Source: Bacteriovoracaceae bacterium (GTDB lineage Bacteria > Bdellovibrionota > Bacteriovoracia > Bacteriovoracales > Bacteriovoracaceae). From it: a stretch of DNA of 43,373 nt. Both the position numbers and the translations under genes were made by a program. Shown piece by piece: positions 5,714 to 19,855 of the stretch (the stretch's first letter is position 1; every line of letters starts with the position of its first letter). The stretch is from assembly GCA_016784965.1 (NCBI GenBank), contig JADHTQ010000040.1:1-43373 (forward strand). Reading direction: 5' to 3'. The notes under the pieces were generated by a model. That model saw only the letters and a program-made list of their open reading frames with translations. It made no database searches and had not been told where the DNA came from.

Positions 5714-6559
5714 ATGAATGAACAATTGAGTGGAATTGCTCACAAATACCAAGAGTTGTTAGAAAATTATGAACCCTATTTGCTATCCTATCCTGAAAAT
5801 TTTTCAAAATTTAACTTTAATCCATTTGGAGTGGAGATCCCTGAAAAAAATAGACTTTCATGTGTCAACTCTAAAAATGCTATTTTTTTTAATGCACTTC
5901 AAAGCTTAGATAAGCTTACATTTGGTCCGGTTGGGATGCCGATGGATAAGTGGATTTTCTTTGATTGTGGCGAAATGGTGGGAGGCATTTTTGGTTTTGG
6001 GATAAGGCCTAATAAGCTGGATGCAGATACACTTTGGCGTTATGACTTAATGGATATCAACTATGATGGATTGATCCCTTTGTCGATGTATATTTCTATT
6101 CCAATGGCCAAACCAGGTGCCTGGTTCGGCCATAATTTGTGTAGTGCCAACAGCTTTTTGGGAAATAAAATGCAGCTGTCAGGACTTGCATTTTTAACAA
6201 AAGTTTTAGGTGTTAAAACATTTAATATGAGGGAGTCATTTGGAGCAACACAATGGAATTCAGGAGCGCTAAATATACATTTGCAAATGACTGATATGGA
6301 TATCATAAGTGCTTTTACTCCTGCTCATTCATTTAATGAAACAATCACCTATCGTTCATTTTATGACGATAAGGCATTAATAAAATCATTATCGGGAGTT
6401 AAGCGAATTGTCTTTGATTGGGATAGACTTATTGTTGCAAATGATCGAGAAGCAATAAGGGAGCTACAAAGAGAAATTGAGTTGGGAGCAAAGTTTACAA
6501 TCATTGGAAGACCTTTGAATATCAACGATGAGATTTGTCTTCCACTTAGAGAAGGGTAG
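5714..6559 (+). CDS. Unrecognised 281-aa protein in cheY-arcA interval
   Basis: I do not recognise this family. The protein is soluble with no signal peptide, aromatic- and Phe/Gly-rich in the middle (FDCGEMVGGIFGFGI, GAWFGHNLCSANSFLG) and ends with an alpha/beta segment (KRIVFDWDRLIVANDREAIR). The alternation of strands suggests a single globular domain of about 200 residues. SD AGAGGT lies 11 nt before ATG 5714. It is 22 bp after cheY and 4 bp before arginine deiminase, so co-expression is likely. Codon use looks like the neighbours. It may be a lineage-specific enzyme or binding protein. Confidence 0.75.
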   Translation: MNEQLSGIAHKYQELLENYEPYLLSYPENFSKFNFNPFGVEIPEKNRLSCVNSKNAIFFNALQSLDKLTFGPVGMPMDKWIFFDCGEMVGGIFGFGIRPNKLDADTLWRYDLMDINYDGLIPLSMYISIPMAKPGAWFGHNLCSANSFLGNKMQLSGLAFLTKVLGVKTFNMRESFGATQWNSGALNIHLQMTDMDIISAFTPAHSFNETITYRSFYDDKALIKSLSGVKRIVFDWDRLIVANDREAIRELQREIELGAKFTIIGRPLNINDEICLPLREG

Positions 6560-6563
6560 TAAA

Positions 6564-7832
6564 ATGCAAAGCAGAGTATATTCTGAAATAGGCCGCCTGA
6601 AAAAGGTAATGGTACACTCTCCTGGTATGGAGATTGATAATATAGTACCAGAAGGGGCCAATGATCTATTGTTCGAGGATATTCTATTTGGTGAGCGGGC
6701 CAGAGATGAACATAAGATGATGTGTCGGATTTTAAAAAAATATGGCGTAACTCCTATTGATATTAAAGATCTACTAGAGGAGTCGATAGAAGCAGCACCC
6801 GAGCAAAATGTAACTGAGCTCTTAGCAGAATTTTGTTTGATGGAGAATTTATCTGAGGAGATAATGAATGATTTGCAGAGCTTTGATCCTGCAAAATTAG
6901 CAACGACTTTAATTGAAGGCATTTTGTTGCCACCAGAGTTGATGGACAATGATAACCTGTATCAACTCTCTCCGATCCCCAATTTGCTTTTTGCAAGAGA
7001 TCCTGTGATTGTTGCCTACGATCATGTCTTTGCCTCATCAATGGCCGAGGGGGCAAGAAATCGTGAATCGCGCATATTAACATTTATCTTTTGCCACCAT
7101 CCAGAATATAAAACACCAGACAAGATTATTGACCTAAATAAATTATCTAAAGTGGGAGGGAAGTTAACGCTAGAGGGGGGAGACCTATTGGTGCTTGATG
7201 AAAAAACGGTAGCAATAGGGTGGTCCAAACGCACCAGCCTAACCTCAATTAAGGTGTTGGCCTTAGAATTAAAAAGAATCGGTGTGAGTAACTTAATTGT
7301 TGTAAAGTTGCCTCACCTTACAAGCTTCATCCATTTAGATACAACCTTTACACGAATAAATCACGATGAGTGTTTAATATATCCCCCGCTTTTTGCAGAA
7401 GAAAGTAATGATCGGGCCCCCATTATTTATTATGATTTAGCAAAAGATGAGCTTGAGCCACAAACATTTGGCTTAATCTTTGACCTATTTAAAAAGTTAG
7501 ATATTTTCTTAAAACCAATCTACTGTGGTGGAAAAGACAGTCTTATTGATCAAAAAAGAGAGCAGTGGACCCAGGGGGCCAACTCCCTATGTATTGCTCC
7601 AGGCATTATTTTGATTTATGCCCGCAATGTTAAAACCATTAAGGAATTAACTGCTGCAGGATACTTGTGTATCAATGCGGTTGAAATATTGAGTCCTACT
7701 TTTGAACCGAACTTAAAACAAAAAACGGCCATACTCCTCAAGGGTGAAGAGTTGTGTCGGGCCAGAGGCGGGCCCCGCTGTTTAACTCACCCTATTTTAA
7801 GAGAGGATGTGTCAAATGAGTTATCTTTATGA
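6564..7832 (+). CDS. arcA: Arginine deiminase
   Basis: The 422-aa enzyme hydrolyses L-arginine to citrulline and ammonia. The family motifs appear in order: KVMVHSPGMEID, PNLLFARDP, TLEGGDLLVLDE, GWSKRTS, HLDTTFTRI, and the catalytic GGPRCLTHPILRE with Cys406. Length is typical. Start ATG 6564 follows AGAAGGG at 6549-6556; the frame could open earlier but would overlap the previous gene. No arcB or arcC is adjacent, so a complete ATP-yielding deiminase pathway is not shown here. The 3' end overlaps the next gene by 17 bp, suggesting coupled translation with the branching enzyme, an unusual pairing. Confidence 0.93.
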   Translation: MQSRVYSEIGRLKKVMVHSPGMEIDNIVPEGANDLLFEDILFGERARDEHKMMCRILKKYGVTPIDIKDLLEESIEAAPEQNVTELLAEFCLMENLSEEIMNDLQSFDPAKLATTLIEGILLPPELMDNDNLYQLSPIPNLLFARDPVIVAYDHVFASSMAEGARNRESRILTFIFCHHPEYKTPDKIIDLNKLSKVGGKLTLEGGDLLVLDEKTVAIGWSKRTSLTSIKVLALELKRIGVSNLIVVKLPHLTSFIHLDTTFTRINHDECLIYPPLFAEESNDRAPIIYYDLAKDELEPQTFGLIFDLFKKLDIFLKPIYCGGKDSLIDQKREQWTQGANSLCIAPGIILIYARNVKTIKELTAAGYLCINAVEILSPTFEPNLKQKTAILLKGEELCRARGGPRCLTHPILREDVSNELSL

Positions 7833-10239
7833 CTATATTATTGTGGGGGAGGGGCTTTTTGCCAGATTGGCCCTAGATATATTAGAAAAAAGGCATGTTT
7901 CAGTTACCTTCTTAGAGCAAAGTAGCAAGTCACCGCAGGCACACGTTGAAAAAATTGAAAAAACTACAGATTTCTATGAGATCAAAACATCTCCAAGAAT
8001 TTACTATGCTCAACACGTAGTCTTTGCGCTCAAGGCTCATGATTGCGCTAAGTTGCTTGATAATATCGATGCAAAGCTTGCGAGGGAATTATCAAAATCA
8101 ACAGACAGCAAACCCAATATGAAAAATATTCAGAAGTTGTTAAATAACCACCCCCACCTTTATTTGGTGGGTAGCTTTATTGAAGACCAAAAGGTTTTAG
8201 AGCAACTTGAGAGTATTAAAGTAATTGAAAACAGCGATTGGTGTGTCCCCAAGCTTGTACAAGATGATGGGTATTTAACTCACTTTAAAGATATAATAAA
8301 AAATCGCCAGAAAAAAACTAAGGTAAAAGAATTTGAACTTGTCGGCAAAGACGGTGATTTATCTTCCTTTGCAACTGGATACCACTACTTTGGCCTTCAT
8401 AGGACCAAAAAAGAATGGATCTTCAGGGAGTGGGCACCAAATGCGACGGCAATTTATTTTGTAGGTGATTTTAATGGCTGGCAAGAAGATGAACGTTTTA
8501 AATTAAAGAAAAAGGATGTAAATGGTGTTTGGGAAATTCATATTTCCTTTGATGATCTGGCCCATAAAAATCTCTATCGCTTAAAGGTTTATTGGGAGGG
8601 TGGAGATGGTGATCGCATTCCGTCTTACTCTAACTATGTTGTGCAAGATGAGAAAACCCACATTTTTAATGCTCAGGTTTGGTCTCCGCCAAATCCATAC
8701 GAGTTTAAGCAGAAGATACCATCACTCAACGGTCAGGCTCCTTTGATCTATGAAAGCCATGTGGGAATGGCCCAAATAGAGGGAAAAGTTGGTTCTTATA
8801 AAGAGTATATAGAGCATACCCTTCCAAGAATTGTAAAGGCCGGATATAACACCATTCAGCTGATGGCAATCCAAGAACACCCGTATTATGGGTCATTTGG
8901 TTATCAAGTTTCAAGCTTTTTTGCCCCGTCTTCTCGTTTTGGCAACCCTGATGAGCTTAAAGAATTAGTCGATGCCATTCATAAAGAAGGGTTGATGGTA
9001 ATTATGGATATCGTCCACTCTCATGCAGTTAAAAATGAAATTGAAGGGCTTGCAAAATTTGATGGTACTTCTCATCAGTATTTTCATGAAGGAGCAAAAG
9101 GGCAACACCCCTCTTGGGATACAATGTGCTTTAACTATGGCAAAAATCAAGTGCTTCACTTTTTGTTATCAAATTGCAAGTATTGGATAGAAGAGTTTAA
9201 GTTTGATGGTTTTCGTTTTGATGGTGTGACTAGTATGCTCTATTTTGATCATGGTCTTGGTAAAGCATTTTCAAGTTACGATGATTATTTTAACCCCAAT
9301 GTCGATGAGGATGTGACCACGTACTTTAGTCTTGCCAATAAGCTAATTCATCAAATTAATCCCAATGCTCTTACCATTGCCGAAGATATGAGCGGTATGC
9401 CAGGGCTTGGTATGAAATTTGAAAATGGTGGTGTTGGGTTTGACTATCGTTTGGCAATGGGGATTCCCGATTTTTGGATCAAACAGCTAAAAGAAAAAAG
9501 TGATGAAGATTGGAACATGGAGATAATGTTCTATGAGTTGATCAATAGAAGAGATGATGAGGGCACCATTACCTATGTTGAGTCCCATGACCAAGCATTA
9601 GTCGGTGATAAGACGATAATCTTTCGCTTAATTGATAAGGATATGTATACCAATATGGGAGTTGATAACCGCAACTTGATGGTCGATCGCGGTATTGCCC
9701 TTCATAAAATGATTCGTCTTTTAACTGCAACAACAGGTGGCAGTGGATATTTGAATTTTATGGGGAATGAGTTTGGACATCCAGAGTGGGTTGATTTTCC
9801 ACGTGAAGGCAATAACTGGTCTTACCACTACGCAAGACGACAGTGGAACCTAGTTGATGAAGACAATCTTTGTTATAAATTTTTAGGTCAGTTTGATCAG
9901 GAAATGGTAAAGCTGCTTAAAGACTATAGTGTATTAGGTAGTACAAAACCCAATATAGTCCACGTCCATGTCAGCAATCACACCTTGGTATTTTCACGCT
10001 CCGGGCTTTTATTTCTTTTTAACTTTGATGCTTCCAATTCTTATACAGACTATAGCTTTGATGTTCCACAAGGAGAGTATAAGCAACTATTTTCTTCAGA
10101 CTGTGATCGCTTTGGGGGACATAATCGTTTGGAAGATGGTCAAATTCATCACACCACAAATTGGCCCGCAACTGACTTGAAAACAATGCTGTCAGTTTAC
10201 CTGCCAGCAAGGACTGCTATAGTTTTAAAAAAGTTGTAA
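7816..10239 (+). CDS. glgB: 1,4-alpha-glucan branching enzyme with N-terminal flavoprotein-like extension
   Basis: The 807-aa protein makes alpha-1,6 branches in glycogen. From about residue 146 it follows the eukaryote/Bacteroidetes-type branching enzymes: N-terminal helices, CBM48 (about 185-280, FREWAPNATAIYFVGDFNGW), a GH13 barrel with DIVHSH (Asp about 398), nucleophile Asp469 (FRFDGV), acid Glu523 (IAEDM) and His591-Asp592 (VESHD), and a C-terminal beta domain. Residues 1-145 are extra: YDYIIVGEGLFARLALDILE resembles the FAD-binding start of amine-oxidase-type flavoproteins, with QHVVFALKAHDCAKLL and LYLVGSFIEDQ like later parts of that fold, but most of it is missing. ATG 7816 is chosen for AGAGGA 8 nt upstream and lies inside arcA. 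Confidence 0.92.
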   Translation: MSYLYDYIIVGEGLFARLALDILEKRHVSVTFLEQSSKSPQAHVEKIEKTTDFYEIKTSPRIYYAQHVVFALKAHDCAKLLDNIDAKLARELSKSTDSKPNMKNIQKLLNNHPHLYLVGSFIEDQKVLEQLESIKVIENSDWCVPKLVQDDGYLTHFKDIIKNRQKKTKVKEFELVGKDGDLSSFATGYHYFGLHRTKKEWIFREWAPNATAIYFVGDFNGWQEDERFKLKKKDVNGVWEIHISFDDLAHKNLYRLKVYWEGGDGDRIPSYSNYVVQDEKTHIFNAQVWSPPNPYEFKQKIPSLNGQAPLIYESHVGMAQIEGKVGSYKEYIEHTLPRIVKAGYNTIQLMAIQEHPYYGSFGYQVSSFFAPSSRFGNPDELKELVDAIHKEGLMVIMDIVHSHAVKNEIEGLAKFDGTSHQYFHEGAKGQHPSWDTMCFNYGKNQVLHFLLSNCKYWIEEFKFDGFRFDGVTSMLYFDHGLGKAFSSYDDYFNPNVDEDVTTYFSLANKLIHQINPNALTIAEDMSGMPGLGMKFENGGVGFDYRLAMGIPDFWIKQLKEKSDEDWNMEIMFYELINRRDDEGTITYVESHDQALVGDKTIIFRLIDKDMYTNMGVDNRNLMVDRGIALHKMIRLLTATTGGSGYLNFMGNEFGHPEWVDFPREGNNWSYHYARRQWNLVDEDNLCYKFLGQFDQEMVKLLKDYSVLGSTKPNIVHVHVSNHTLVFSRSGLLFLFNFDASNSYTDYSFDVPQGEYKQLFSSDCDRFGGHNRLEDGQIHHTTNWPATDLKTMLSVYLPARTAIVLKKL

Positions 10240-15051: not shown

Positions 15052-16446
15052 ATGGGTTTTAGTGATGTGAGTGAAGTGAGTGATGATGTCCAAAATCAGG
15101 TTGATCAATTATTTTCAGTGATTTTAAAAAGGCAACAACAAGTAAACTCACTTAAAAGGCCGATAAAGGGCAAAGAAAAACTTATTGAGAAGACATTAGG
15201 TGATTACGCAAAATTCAGAGGAAGAGGTTTTTTTTACAATTACCTATCCTCAGGTAAGGGGCATGGCCCCTTTACAGAGCTGGTAGATGGATCAGTAAAG
15301 TTTGATCTGATTAATGCAATTGGTGTCAACCTCTTGGGTCACTCTCACCCTTTATACATCAAAGCTCACCTCGAAGCGGCTTTATCAGATTCAATTATGT
15401 GTGGGAATCTGCTGCCCTACCAGGAGTCATATAAAGCTATGGGGCATCTTCTTAAGGCAGTTGAGGGATCTCGTTTAAAGCATTTTTGGTTTGCGGGATC
15501 GGGTAGTTTTGCAAATGACACTGCTTTAAAACTTATTTGGCAAAAAAAAGCACCGGCCTATAAAATTATTGCTTTTGACAACTGTTTTGCCGGTAGATCA
15601 GTGGCCACTCAGAATATAACGTCTAATGTAAATTACCGGGAAGGCATGCCAACATCTGTAGAAGTGGAGCATGTTCCGCACTACGATTACCGCGATCCTG
15701 TTAATTCTTTGAAAAATACGATTAAGGCTATGGATGAGGTTTGGCAAAAAGATCCAGGTGCATATTGTGCGCTGGAAATAGAGCTAATCCAAGGAGAGGC
15801 GGGATTTATTTATGGAACCAAAGAGTATTACGAAGGCGTCTTTAAGTGGGCCAAAGATAAAGGACTCTATATTTGGGTTGATGAAGTGCAAACTTTTGGC
15901 CGAACCAGGGAGTTGTTTGCCTACCAAATGTTTGGTTTAGACAAGTACGTTGATATTGTAACGATTGGCAAAGCTTTGCAAGCATGTGGTACATTTTATA
16001 CCGAAGAGTTAAACCCAAAACCGGGTTTAATTGCTGGCACCTTTCATGGATCTTTGGTCTCTTTAAATGCTGCAAGTAAGATAATTGAGTATTTAACGGG
16101 AGGTAACTTCTATGGTGATGATGGTCGCATTCAAGAGCTAGAAAAGCAGTTTATCTGTAAGCTTAACCATCTTATGCAAGGATCTTGTAAAGGTATTATA
16201 AGGTATGTTGGAGGTATTGGCACCATGATCTCCTTTGAGGTGGCAGATGCTTCCAAAGAGCAGAGTATTAAATTTTTAAAACAACTATTTAACAATGGAA
16301 TAATTGCCTTTTCAGCGGGAAAAGATCCTGTGCGCATTAGGTTTTTGCTTCCACTTTGTTTAACTGATGAGCATATAAATCAAATATTTCAAATTTTAGA
16401 AATGACCTTACATGAAGTTTTTAAACCCCAAGGAGAAGTAACATGA
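15052..16446 (+). CDS. PLP class III aminotransferase (ArgD/AstC-type context)
   Basis: The 464-aa enzyme has the class III layout: the PLP-phosphate loop GSGSFANDTALKL, FDNCFAGRS, IELIQGEAGF, the pyridine-binding Asp in WVDEVQTFGRTRELFAY, the Schiff-base Lys in TIGKALQ, GTFHGS and a C-terminal IRFLLPLCLT. Two usual residues differ: the Glu of GTEAN-type loops is Phe, and the His of FHG is Ala. Because it overlaps an AstD-like gene and precedes argC-argB, it probably moves an amino group to or from an N-acylglutamate semialdehyde. AAGGA at 15041-15045 favours ATG 15052; ATG 15049 is equally in frame. GABA- or lysine-type activity cannot be excluded. Confidence 0.82.
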   Translation: MGFSDVSEVSDDVQNQVDQLFSVILKRQQQVNSLKRPIKGKEKLIEKTLGDYAKFRGRGFFYNYLSSGKGHGPFTELVDGSVKFDLINAIGVNLLGHSHPLYIKAHLEAALSDSIMCGNLLPYQESYKAMGHLLKAVEGSRLKHFWFAGSGSFANDTALKLIWQKKAPAYKIIAFDNCFAGRSVATQNITSNVNYREGMPTSVEVEHVPHYDYRDPVNSLKNTIKAMDEVWQKDPGAYCALEIELIQGEAGFIYGTKEYYEGVFKWAKDKGLYIWVDEVQTFGRTRELFAYQMFGLDKYVDIVTIGKALQACGTFYTEELNPKPGLIAGTFHGSLVSLNAASKIIEYLTGGNFYGDDGRIQELEKQFICKLNHLMQGSCKGIIRYVGGIGTMISFEVADASKEQSIKFLKQLFNNGIIAFSAGKDPVRIRFLLPLCLTDEHINQIFQILEMTLHEVFKPQGEVT

Positions 16447-17960
16447 AGTATACACTTAAGGGAAACTATTGGAACGGAATCTATACATTGCCCTCTGCTT
16501 CAGGACCAGAGAGTGCTGAAAAAATAGAAACGAAGTATTGTCCAGCGGATCTTTCTACTACGTTGTGGCAATGTCACATTTCGTATCAGCACGTTGACAA
16601 GGTTATCGAATCTGCTTGGGATGGTTTTGAGGTATGGAAAAATGAAGTTGTTAAAAAAAGAGTAGAATTTATTAATCGCTTTAAAAAAGCTCTCATTGAC
16701 CAAAAAGAGCAAATTATTAATGCACTTTCTTTGGAGACAGGAATCACCCATTGGGAAAGTACACTAGAGTTTGATGAAACGATTAATGCTATGAGTTTTG
16801 CAATCGATAACTGTCAAGAAAAATTAAAACCGCAGCAATTAAAGCTAGAAGAAAACGCAATTGGAAATGTTTTTTATCGTCCACTTGGTCCAAGTTTGAT
16901 TATTGGTAACGATATTCAGTCTTTTAGTTTTATCAGTGCTTACTTAGTTCCAGTACTTCTTTCGGGAAATAGTATTATCTTGCACCCGTCGCTAAAGCTT
17001 GCTTACAGTGCCCAGTTAATCGTAGATTGTTTTCATAAAGCAGAATTTCCAAAAGGTGTAATTAATCTTTTACAGGGTGATAAAGAAACCACCAAAAGAT
17101 TATTAAAGGAAAAAGCAGTTAAAGGTGTTTATTTTACAGGTAGAAAGGAGATGGGTAAGTTTGTAATTGAAAATACTTACCAAGATTTAAGTAAATTAAG
17201 TACTCTAACATTAAGTGGTAAAAACCCCTGTATTATTCATAAGGATGTCGATATCGACAGTGTGATGGCCGAATTGCTTAAGGCAGTGTTTTTAAGTTGT
17301 GGGCAACGTATTACTTCCACTTCAATGGTTGTTATTCACAATGATATTAAAGATGAATTTATTACAAAATTTCATACACTGGCAAAAAGGATAATCATAG
17401 ATCACCCTATTGAGTCAAAAAAACAACCTTTTTTAGGGCCTTTAATTGATAAACAGGCACTAGATAGCTACCTCATGTTTATCGGGATGGCCAAACGAGA
17501 AGGCATTGAGGAAATAATGCGCGGTAAGAATGTGGAAAAAGAACATAAAGGGTATTATGTGTCACCATCAATTCACTACGCAAAAGATTTAAACCAAAAA
17601 GGGCACTTCATTTCTAGTGAAATTATGGGACCAAACTGTACGTTTGTCTCTTATGATACCATTGAACAAGCTGTAGAGATTGCCAATAAAACTGAATTCG
17701 GGTTAGTCTCATCGATTTACACTAAAGATTCTAAGCTTTCTGATTTTTGCCTGCAGCAGTTACAACACGGTCAAATCAATATAAATACACCGACTACCAA
17801 CATCTCTTTTAGACTGCCATTTGGAGGTATTAAAAACTCTGGGAATTTCCACCCGATAGGTGCAAACTTAATTAACTCGTGTGTATACTCTCAAAGTAAT
17901 TTACAAATGAATAATGTTGTAAGCAGTGATATCAAATCACTAATTGGATTAGAGGAATAA
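16443..17960 (+). CDS. AstD-like aldehyde dehydrogenase fold, catalytic residues lost (pseudoenzyme)
   Basis: The 505-aa protein spans the whole ALDH fold and aligns with succinylglutamate-semialdehyde dehydrogenase (AstD): PLGPSLIIGNDIQSFSF, YFTGRKEMGK, LTLSGKNP, FLSCGQRITST, SEIMGP, FRLPFGGIKNSGN. At each catalytic site the residue is changed: the nucleophile Cys of GQRC is Ile (GQRIT), the base Glu of LELGGKNP is Thr, and the Asn of the PYNFP segment is Ile; KPSE, which contacts NAD, is HPSL. The frame is intact. It starts at ATG 16443, overlapping the aminotransferase stop by 4 bp, and is 15 bp before argC. Probably a non-catalytic binding or scaffold protein; a different activity is possible. 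Confidence 0.85.
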   Translation: MKYTLKGNYWNGIYTLPSASGPESAEKIETKYCPADLSTTLWQCHISYQHVDKVIESAWDGFEVWKNEVVKKRVEFINRFKKALIDQKEQIINALSLETGITHWESTLEFDETINAMSFAIDNCQEKLKPQQLKLEENAIGNVFYRPLGPSLIIGNDIQSFSFISAYLVPVLLSGNSIILHPSLKLAYSAQLIVDCFHKAEFPKGVINLLQGDKETTKRLLKEKAVKGVYFTGRKEMGKFVIENTYQDLSKLSTLTLSGKNPCIIHKDVDIDSVMAELLKAVFLSCGQRITSTSMVVIHNDIKDEFITKFHTLAKRIIIDHPIESKKQPFLGPLIDKQALDSYLMFIGMAKREGIEEIMRGKNVEKEHKGYYVSPSIHYAKDLNQKGHFISSEIMGPNCTFVSYDTIEQAVEIANKTEFGLVSSIYTKDSKLSDFCLQQLQHGQININTPTTNISFRLPFGGIKNSGNFHPIGANLINSCVYSQSNLQMNNVVSSDIKSLIGLEE

Positions 17961-17975
17961 AAGGAACTAAAAAAA

Positions 17976-19031
17976 ATGAAAGAAAAAATTAACGTTGCTA
18001 TTATGGGAGGCTCAGGTTATGCCTCAGCAGAGCTTATTAAACGTTTAGTAGAACACCCACACGTGGAACTAAAGAGGATATCGAGCATAGATTATGTCGG
18101 AGAAAACATCGGTGTCGTTCATAAAAATTTTGGTAATAGACTTCCATTTATTTTAGAGAATCTCACACCTGCCCAAGTTGCAAATGACTGTGATTTAGTA
18201 TTTTTAACTCTTCCCCATAAAGTGTCGTATCAAATGGTACCAAAGCTCATGCCAACCGGAGTTAAAATCATTGATTTTTCCGGCGATTATCGCATGAAAG
18301 ATGTTTCGGTGTATGAGTCTCATTATAAAACTACTCATACCAATCCCGAAAACATTGAATCATTTGTATATGGTTTGCCTGAACTTAATAAAAATTTAAT
18401 AAAAGAGGCACATTTTATAGCAAACCCAGGGTGTTTTCCCACCGCAGTGGCACTAAGCCTTTTGCCTTTGGCCCAAAATGGCTTATTAACAACCAAAGTC
18501 AGAGTAGTAGGTCCCACCGGCAGCAGTGGAAGTGGTGTGCATCCACAAGCTGGCACTCACCATCCAGTAAGGTCTAGAAACTTAAAAAGCTATAAACCGC
18601 TATTTCACCAACATCAACCTGAAATGGAGCAAGTTTTAACTCAGGCAGGTGGCAGAGATATTTCAGTGGATTTTATTCCCATGTCGGCACCCCTTACTCG
18701 CGGTATTTTAACCAATGCGATTGTTGATTTACCAAAAGATATAACAATGGAAAAAATTCAAAAGCTATACACTGACTACTACAGTGATAGTCCGTTTGTT
18801 AGAGTTTTAAGTGAGAAAAAGTACCCGGAAACAATCTCTATAGCTGGAACAAATTTTGTCGACATTGGAATTTCTTTGCGGCAGGAGCGCAGTGGAAGCA
18901 AAAGTTTTGTTGCAATTGCTTCAATAGATAATTTAGTAAAAGGGGCCGCAGGCCAAGCTGTGCAAAATATGAATCTCATGTATGGATTTGATGAAATGAC
19001 AGGCCTTAATGATTTTGGACAGTGGCCTTAG
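17976..19031 (+). CDS. argC: N-acyl-gamma-glutamyl-phosphate reductase, LysY-like
   Basis: The 351-aa reductase converts an acylglutamyl (or LysW-aminoadipyl) phosphate to the semialdehyde with NADPH. It has the N-terminal Rossmann motif IMGGSGYASAELIKRL, VFLTLPHKV, DFSGDYR and the catalytic Cys153 (NPGCFPT). The segment THHPVRSRNLKSYKPLFHQH and the end GTNFVDIG / IDNLVKGAAGQAVQ are closer in pattern to LysY of Thermus than to E. coli or Bacillus ArgC. Position between the aminotransferase/ALDH pair and argB supports arginine (or LysW-type lysine) synthesis; the carrier group cannot be decided from this window. No LysW-like gene is seen. Confidence 0.88.
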   Translation: MKEKINVAIMGGSGYASAELIKRLVEHPHVELKRISSIDYVGENIGVVHKNFGNRLPFILENLTPAQVANDCDLVFLTLPHKVSYQMVPKLMPTGVKIIDFSGDYRMKDVSVYESHYKTTHTNPENIESFVYGLPELNKNLIKEAHFIANPGCFPTAVALSLLPLAQNGLLTTKVRVVGPTGSSGSGVHPQAGTHHPVRSRNLKSYKPLFHQHQPEMEQVLTQAGGRDISVDFIPMSAPLTRGILTNAIVDLPKDITMEKIQKLYTDYYSDSPFVRVLSEKKYPETISIAGTNFVDIGISLRQERSGSKSFVAIASIDNLVKGAAGQAVQNMNLMYGFDEMTGLNDFGQWP

Positions 19032-19033
19032 CA

Positions 19034-19855
19034 ATGTGTGACTATCAAACCATAGTAGTAAAGTTTGGTGGGGAAATTACCCAGTCTCCCCCTTTGCTGG
19101 CAAATTTAGCAGCTTCCATTGAAAAAATCCATGCAGGTAAAAAAAATGTAATCCTAGTGCATGGAGGAGGACCAGTTGCTACAGAGCTTGGCCAAAAATT
19201 AAGCATTGCACCCATTATGGTAGGAGGTAGAAGGGTAACATGTGAGCAAACACTAGAAGTAATGAAAATGACCCTTCCGGGTATTGTTAACTCAAACGTA
19301 TTGGCCGTTTTAAAAAAATTTAAGTTGCCAGGAGTAAGTGTCAGTGGAATTAGTATTGTAGATGCCATTACACGCCCACCCAAGGTAGTTTCAGGCAGTG
19401 ATGGAAAGGTGATCGATTTTGGATACGTTGGCGATATCCTTGACATTAACACAACACTGCTGTCCCACCTTCTAAACAAGCACTTTATACCTGTGATAAG
19501 CCCTTTATCCTGTGATGTTAATGGGAAAATATTAAATATCAATGCAGATACAGTCGCATCTCAAACGGCCAAAAAAATAAAGGCCTATAAGTTAGTTTTG
19601 ATAACTGAAATAGGTGGTGTATTTGAAGATATTAACGATAAATCATCGAGGTTAAAAATTCTAACCGCGGACAGTGCCAGGCAAAAAATTGCAGAGGGTA
19701 TAATTCAAGGGGGTATGATACCCAAAATTGAGGAGGGTCTAAAGCTTCTACAGGGCCACTTAAGTAGTTTTCATATAGTTGGTATCAATTCTTCCGAGAC
19801 ACTCTTGCAAGAAATTAATAACCCAGGAAGTGTGGGAACTGCGATTGTAGAGTAA
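19034..19855 (+). CDS. argB: Acetylglutamate kinase (ArgB/LysZ family)
   Basis: The 273-aa kinase phosphorylates the gamma-carboxyl of N-acylglutamate. It has the amino-acid-kinase features VVKFGGE, VILVHGGGP, VGGRRVTCEQTLEV, DFGYVGDI, NINADTVASQTA, LITEIGGVF and GGMIPKIEEGL. The N-terminus is short, without the extra helix of the arginine-inhibited hexameric forms, so feedback control may be weak or different. ATG 19034 lies 2 bp after the argC stop; GTG 19022 is an in-frame alternative overlapping argC. It is the last gene of the four-gene run, meeting the charged-protein gene tail to tail. Confidence 0.9.
   Translation: MCDYQTIVVKFGGEITQSPPLLANLAASIEKIHAGKKNVILVHGGGPVATELGQKLSIAPIMVGGRRVTCEQTLEVMKMTLPGIVNSNVLAVLKKFKLPGVSVSGISIVDAITRPPKVVSGSDGKVIDFGYVGDILDINTTLLSHLLNKHFIPVISPLSCDVNGKILNINADTVASQTAKKIKAYKLVLITEIGGVFEDINDKSSRLKILTADSARQKIAEGIIQGGMIPKIEEGLKLLQGHLSSFHIVGINSSETLLQEINNPGSVGTAIVE

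Follow-up and report, generated by a model that had tools for sequence, protein, structure and literature searches.

An AstD homologue without its catalytic residues in an arginine-type operon of a predatory bacterium is probably a silent partner protein

Introduction

Why would an arginine-type operon keep an unbroken gene for an aldehyde dehydrogenase (ALDH) that has lost its catalytic residues? The question is raised by a contig of a Bacteriovoracaceae bacterium (JADHTQ010000040.1). We refer to this whole stretch, of 43,373 nucleotides, as the window. The gene resembles astD and lies between genes for an aminotransferase and for ArgC. A first-pass annotation, made from the letters of the window, proposed that the protein binds the labile semialdehyde made by ArgC and hands it to the aminotransferase, or that it regulates the two. 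Here, we describe the gene, its relatives in 129 genomes and the readings that these permit.

Results

A full-length AstD-like protein without catalytic residues

The gene, which we call pseudo-AstD, and its neighbours are listed in Table 1. The frame of 505 codons is uninterrupted, and in 2000 base-shuffled versions it was never open. The gene is full length, as the first-pass annotation had it. The same annotation named four active-site replacements, and each of them holds when the protein is aligned with AstD of E. coli and with the wider family. The nucleophilic Cys, the general base Glu, the oxyanion Asn and the Lys of the KPSE motif are all replaced. Locally, the lost nucleophile and base sit in GQRIT (I290) and LTLSGKN (T256), and the E. 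coli motifs PYNFP and KPSE have become NDIQS and HPSL. The Cys/Glu/Asn set of the AstD equivalog family (TIGR03240) is thus absent (I290, T256 and I158). We infer that dehydrogenase activity has been lost. Annotation by overall similarity could label such a protein an active semialdehyde dehydrogenase.

Table 1. Features of the pseudo-AstD locus. Positions are those of the window.
Feature	Position	Strand	Basis
Class-III aminotransferase, PLP Lys and Asp kept; stop codon overlaps the pseudo-AstD start (ATGA)	15052..16446	+	
pseudo-AstD, full-length ALDH-fold protein of 505 aa without catalytic residues	16443..17960	+	
Ile158 codon, replacing the oxyanion Asn (E. coli AstD N145)	16914..16916	+	alignment
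His181 codon, replacing the cofactor-site Lys (E. coli AstD K168, KPSE motif)	16983..16985	+	alignment
Thr256 codon, replacing the general base Glu (E. coli AstD E243)	17208..17210	+	alignment
Cys286 codon, 4 residues N-terminal of the lost nucleophile	17298..17300	+	alignment
Ile290 codon, replacing the nucleophile Cys (E. coli AstD C277)	17310..17312	+	alignment to E. coli AstD
argC, N-acetyl-gamma-glutamyl-phosphate reductase	17976..19031	+	TIGR01850, 375 bits (cut-off 234)
argB, acetylglutamate kinase, overlaps argC	19022..19855	+	TIGR00761, 178 bits (cut-off 151)

The protein matches the Pfam Aldedh family (PF00171) with 302 bits (cut-off 23). It is a single domain, matched in one stretch, and the two tandem ALDH domains of ALDH16A1 are not found. 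The top NCBIfam matches are succinylglutamate-semialdehyde dehydrogenases at 260 and 242 bits, well short of the curated cut-offs of 514 and 579; the second of these is TIGR03240. The AlphaFold model predicts one confident and complete ALDH fold (pLDDT 93.6). Its best solved match is the succinylglutamate semialdehyde dehydrogenase AstD of P. aeruginosa (Z 50.0, 1.9 Å over 483 residues), and the top PDB matches listed are all ALDHs. Trees place the protein as an orthologue among the AstD sequences of the bacterial family, and so does the shared position of the gene behind the aminotransferase. The evidence supports the original suggestion that it descends from an AstD-type enzyme whose substrate was an N-acylglutamate semialdehyde. 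Alignment and model together describe a folded homologue whose catalytic residues are lost, as expected of a pseudoenzyme.

Genes for arginine metabolism in the same genome

The flanking genes are as first described, with a caution for the aminotransferase. This protein is only ~25% identical to E. coli ArgD/AstC, and its 152 bits against TIGR00707 do not come near the cut-off of 410. The Lys and Asp that serve PLP are retained in every aminotransferase compared, and the enzyme encoded upstream of pseudo-AstD is apparently active.

The genome to which the window belongs (G000) spans 4.6 Mb in 126 contigs. We found no further AstD-like gene in it; there is one other match, whose 25% identity covers only part of a frame of 1422 residues. 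The genome encodes ornithine carbamoyltransferase (OTC), carbamate kinase and argG-argH. OTC, ArgG and ArgH make arginine synthesis from ornithine plausible. A search of the genome for ArgJ found none. Candidates for an N-acetylornithine or N-succinylornithine carbamoyltransferase proved to be aspartate carbamoyltransferase and YgeW, so there is no evidence in G000 for a route by acylated transcarbamylation. Scans for promoters and terminators gave matches at chance level. The window also carries an arginine deiminase gene (6528-7832, + strand) of atypical sequence (TIGR01078, 266 bits; cut-off 489). Together with OTC and carbamate kinase, this points to a deiminase route, which apparently replaces the AstA route of relatives.

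Altered active sites probably belong to one clade

The host group comprises predatory bacteria, and AstD relatives occur in 121 of the 129 genomes at E < 1e-60. One contig scan returned a single close relative by name, Bacteriovorax sp. BSW11_IV. The substitutions are conserved in orthologues only in part. Loss is common to one clade of eight sequences, but the other 109 of the 117 aligned orthologous sequences keep all four residues (N, K, E and C) and the replacing residues differ by lineage. The nucleophile is Ile in G000, Ala in G056 and Phe in G128; the other five altered proteins keep Cys. Changes elsewhere are E to H and N to F in G056, E to N and N to R in G128, E to Q and N to C in G063, and E to N and N to C in both G126 and G127. 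Only Asn differs in G023 (to D) and in G121 (to I). All eight frames are full length and open despite deep divergence.

The altered sequences form one clade in the full tree (SH-aLRT 100), where their branches are longer. We considered whether shared active-site letters created this grouping, and rejected the idea because the clade persists once those columns are removed. A mixture-model tree built in this way from 35 rows, with no distant outgroup, gave the clade a support of 95/96; this tree held seven altered sequences, one of the near-identical pair G126/G127 being omitted. When the outgroup consisted of very distant ALDHs, the altered sequences dropped to an unresolved base, which we take as long-branch attraction. 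Monophyly is thus likely, not certain. Branching within the clade differs between trees. In a tree of neighbouring conserved genes, all eight altered genomes group with G058, G059-G061 and G109 (13 genomes, support 97). The ALDH orthologue is missing from G059, G060, G061 and G109, where the aminotransferase is still present.

Loss of AstA and adjacency of argC-argB

Around intact genes the order is mostly aminotransferase-AstA-AstD, and AstA is found in 111 of the 129 genomes. Another branch of the family has AstA nearby but not immediately before AstD. Judged by gene order, aminotransferase-AstA-AstD is the ancestral and general arrangement of this bacterial family, and a putative catabolic unit. 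A search of 24 genomes found AstB in just one; the ancestral operon was therefore not the complete E. coli AST pathway. A route by ornithine succinylation would need no AstB.

Our search of the 129 genomes found no AstA in seven of the eight altered ones (G000, G023, G056, G063, G126, G127 and G128). In the eighth, G121, AstA is still in the operon, only Asn has changed and a second, intact AstD is encoded elsewhere. The state of G121 suggests an order of events: Asn changed first, AstA was lost next, and then Glu disappeared from most lineages and Cys from some. The extra AstD of G121 (L282, contig C8, 8082-9692) is identical to a protein of G120 (L073); its neighbourhood differs and has neither AstA nor the aminotransferase.

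The argC-argB pair lies directly downstream of the ALDH gene in only three genomes (G000, G056 and G128), and these are the three without the nucleophilic Cys. The chance of this coincidence is 4e-6 if kinship is ignored and 1 in 56 within the eight altered sequences. The context of argC, argB and aminotransferase recurs, with the same Cys loss, in two other genera. A tree of ArgC and ArgB neither supports nor rejects a single recruitment (p-AU 0.18). The altered protein is retained without argC-argB in G063, G126 and G127, and in G023 the pair is elsewhere. Related argC-argB genes lie elsewhere in G058 and G040-G042, which have an intact ALDH. G059-G061 have argC-argB and this aminotransferase, and no ALDH orthologue. 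A separate locus of G061 (L221, contig C70, 7039-9209) has another ArgB/ArgA-like kinase gene, divergent and coding for 425 aa, with an ArgC-like gene behind it; the ArgC match contains two stop codons. G061 has its intact argC-argB elsewhere.

The fold is held and the pocket is not

Selection was measurable in one pair, G126/G127, the lineage of the window having no close relative. The two ALDHs differ at 10% of residues, with dN of 0.054 and dS of ~1.9, giving a dN/dS of ~0.03 that is rough since dS is near saturation. For the aminotransferase of the same pair the ratio is higher (0.08-0.09). Judged from these codons, constraint on the altered ALDH is clear in G126/G127, and the prediction of a dN/dS below 1 holds for this pair, which is not the window's own. 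No same-strand gene lies directly behind the ALDH gene in G126, G127 or G063, so polarity does not explain its retention.

We compared 104 positions that are near-invariant in intact relatives. The window protein keeps 52% of those in the pocket versus 82% of the others. For E. coli AstD, a distant but active enzyme, the pattern is reversed (77% versus 70%). Across the altered clade, 48-61% of pocket residues and 65-83% of other conserved residues are kept. We found no residue that all altered proteins share and that sets them apart from intact ones. Invariant residues of the nucleotide site include Glu393 and Gly233. Since the pocket has been freed without a common new constraint while the fold is held, the pattern is that expected of a structural or regulatory, non-catalytic, role.

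Discussion

We consider it rather probable that an AstD has here turned into a pseudoenzyme that is kept as a non-catalytic partner of the aminotransferase. Pseudo-AstD probably works as a silent partner protein, not as an enzyme. Its gene would descend from the astD of a catabolic aminotransferase-astA-astD operon. In one lineage AstA would have been lost, with the arginine deiminase/ornithine carbamoyltransferase route in its place, and AstD would have lost its catalytic residues. The protein would have been retained in folded form, with its gene closely coupled to that of the aminotransferase. It could stabilise, scaffold or allosterically affect the aminotransferase by a presumed contact, and may still hold nucleotide or semialdehyde.

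With argC-argB directly behind the gene, the operons of three genomes plausibly make ornithine or arginine. A live AstD beside ArgC would oxidise N-acylglutamate semialdehyde back to N-acylglutamate, wasting ATP and NADPH. Loss of the oxidation avoids undoing the product of ArgC, so silencing may have been an escape from a futile cycle. In E. coli, AstC and ArgD can functionally replace each other (PMC3590144); thus, a catabolic aminotransferase can serve biosynthesis. In G059-G061 and G109 the aminotransferase persists with no ALDH orthologue, so the partner is not universally needed.

Other roles can be weighed against the same evidence. A metabolite carrier, binding the labile N-acylglutamate semialdehyde without oxidation and passing it from ArgC to the aminotransferase, would suit a protein whose fold is predicted complete, whose ancestor used this type of substrate, whose gene sits between those two genes and whose loss of Cys coincides with argC-argB. 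However, the pocket is the least conserved part of the protein and is filled differently in each lineage, which is unexpected of a conserved ligand site, and G059-G061 combine argC-argB and this aminotransferase without an ALDH orthologue. Three genomes have the altered protein but no argC-argB, so handover from ArgC cannot be its only role. As a general role, the handover put forward by the first-pass annotation is contradicted by these genomes (G063, G126 and G127) and by G023. We therefore regard the carrier as unlikely. The fuller scenario, in which AstA was swapped for ArgC-ArgB, AstD was killed and the dead protein became a carrier or scaffold channelling semialdehyde to the aminotransferase as a catabolic operon turned biosynthetic, we hold equally doubtful. 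Rather improbable, too, is that the eroded pocket gained another activity, such as hydrolysis, or a different ligand. Strong purifying selection, the Cys retained in five of the eight altered proteins and the invariant Glu393 and Gly233 would fit such new catalysis, but no residue is specific to and common to the altered clade, and the three catalytic positions differ by lineage. Differing pocket residues argue against a shared new catalysis.

A decaying relic, maintained by nothing more than chance or operon polarity, would account for the longer branches of the altered clade and for the outright loss of the gene from G059-G061 and G109. Yet the gene has stayed open in eight deeply diverged genomes, the window protein keeps most of its conserved residues outside the pocket (0.82), and G126 and G127 retain the gene with no same-strand operon gene behind it. 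Decay as the main reading was rejected on the dN/dS of that pair and on retention in eight genomes; we think it very unlikely. Least credible of all is a protein that is still a dehydrogenase by way of another Cys, for instance Cys286, close though this is to the lost nucleophile. Two relatives with the normal nucleophile carry a Cys at the position of Cys286 too, which makes this residue an unlikely substitute and led us to reject it. Moreover, the position is not Cys in L108 and L074, the other members lacking the nucleophile, and Glu and Asn are lost as well.

The partner reading can be set beside known systems. Long PutA proteins have a non-catalytic C-terminal domain of the ALDH superfamily that serves oligomerisation and channelling of glutamate semialdehyde. 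Pseudo-AstD would share an inactive ALDH fold with that domain but is free-standing, whereas the PutA domain is part of a bifunctional enzyme. Active AstD (TIGR03240; PDB 3ju8, 4kna and 5u0l) resembles pseudo-AstD in its whole fold, in giving the best profile and sequence matches, and in an operon with an acylornithine-type aminotransferase. It differs in that pseudo-AstD lacks Cys, Glu, Asn and Lys and lies beside argC-argB in a genome without AstA. The human pseudoenzyme ALDH16A1 likewise has an ALDH fold without the catalytic triad (PMC10650815), but it belongs to another, eukaryotic, ALDH family outside amino acid biosynthesis. In GRM1 microcompartment loci, one of two AldDHs has Ser or Pro for Cys, and a scaffolding or regulatory role has been suggested for it (PMC4207490). 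This is again a bacterial, operon-borne ALDH without its nucleophile; it differs in that its metabolosome locus also has an active copy next to it, whereas we found no intact copy in G000 and the context there is arginine metabolism. The first-pass statement that no pseudo-ALDH was described in this role thus needs qualifying: pseudo-ALDHs are already known, but in open-licence papers we found none in arginine metabolism.

The family offers a natural stepwise series from enzyme to pseudoenzyme within one operon. It starts from an AstD that is intact and accompanied by AstA. Next, Asn is lost while AstA is still there; then AstA is gone and Asn, in most cases along with Glu, has changed; and last, Cys is lost where argC-argB joined. 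Intact, altered and gene-less relatives that share the same aminotransferase are living comparisons. They make it testable why an enzyme that would undo a pathway is silenced and not deleted, and whether catabolic enzymes persist as structural partners when the direction of an operon changes.

Further genes of note

Several further genes were observed. A branching-enzyme-like protein of 810 aa with CBM48 and alpha-amylase domains (window 7807-10239, + strand) is an odd neighbour of the arginine deiminase gene, whose end it overlaps by 26 bases. On another contig of G000, a ygeW-ygeY-type cluster (L253, contig C39, 4721-8302) includes a carbamate kinase of 376 aa that matches its profile in two stretches. 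The arginine deiminase gene is also overlapped by a gene for a 281-aa protein (window 5714-6559, + strand) without a match in Pfam, NCBIfam or PDB sequences. Its homologues are 49-53% identical. Their genes are found between those for OTC and arginine deiminase (G128 and G040), after OTC (G056), behind argC-argB (G023) and ~6 kb from argC-argB (G061). An AlphaFold model (pLDDT 86) has a weak likeness to GNAT acetyltransferases (best Foldseek E 4e-4), and the protein might be the missing N-acetylglutamate synthase.
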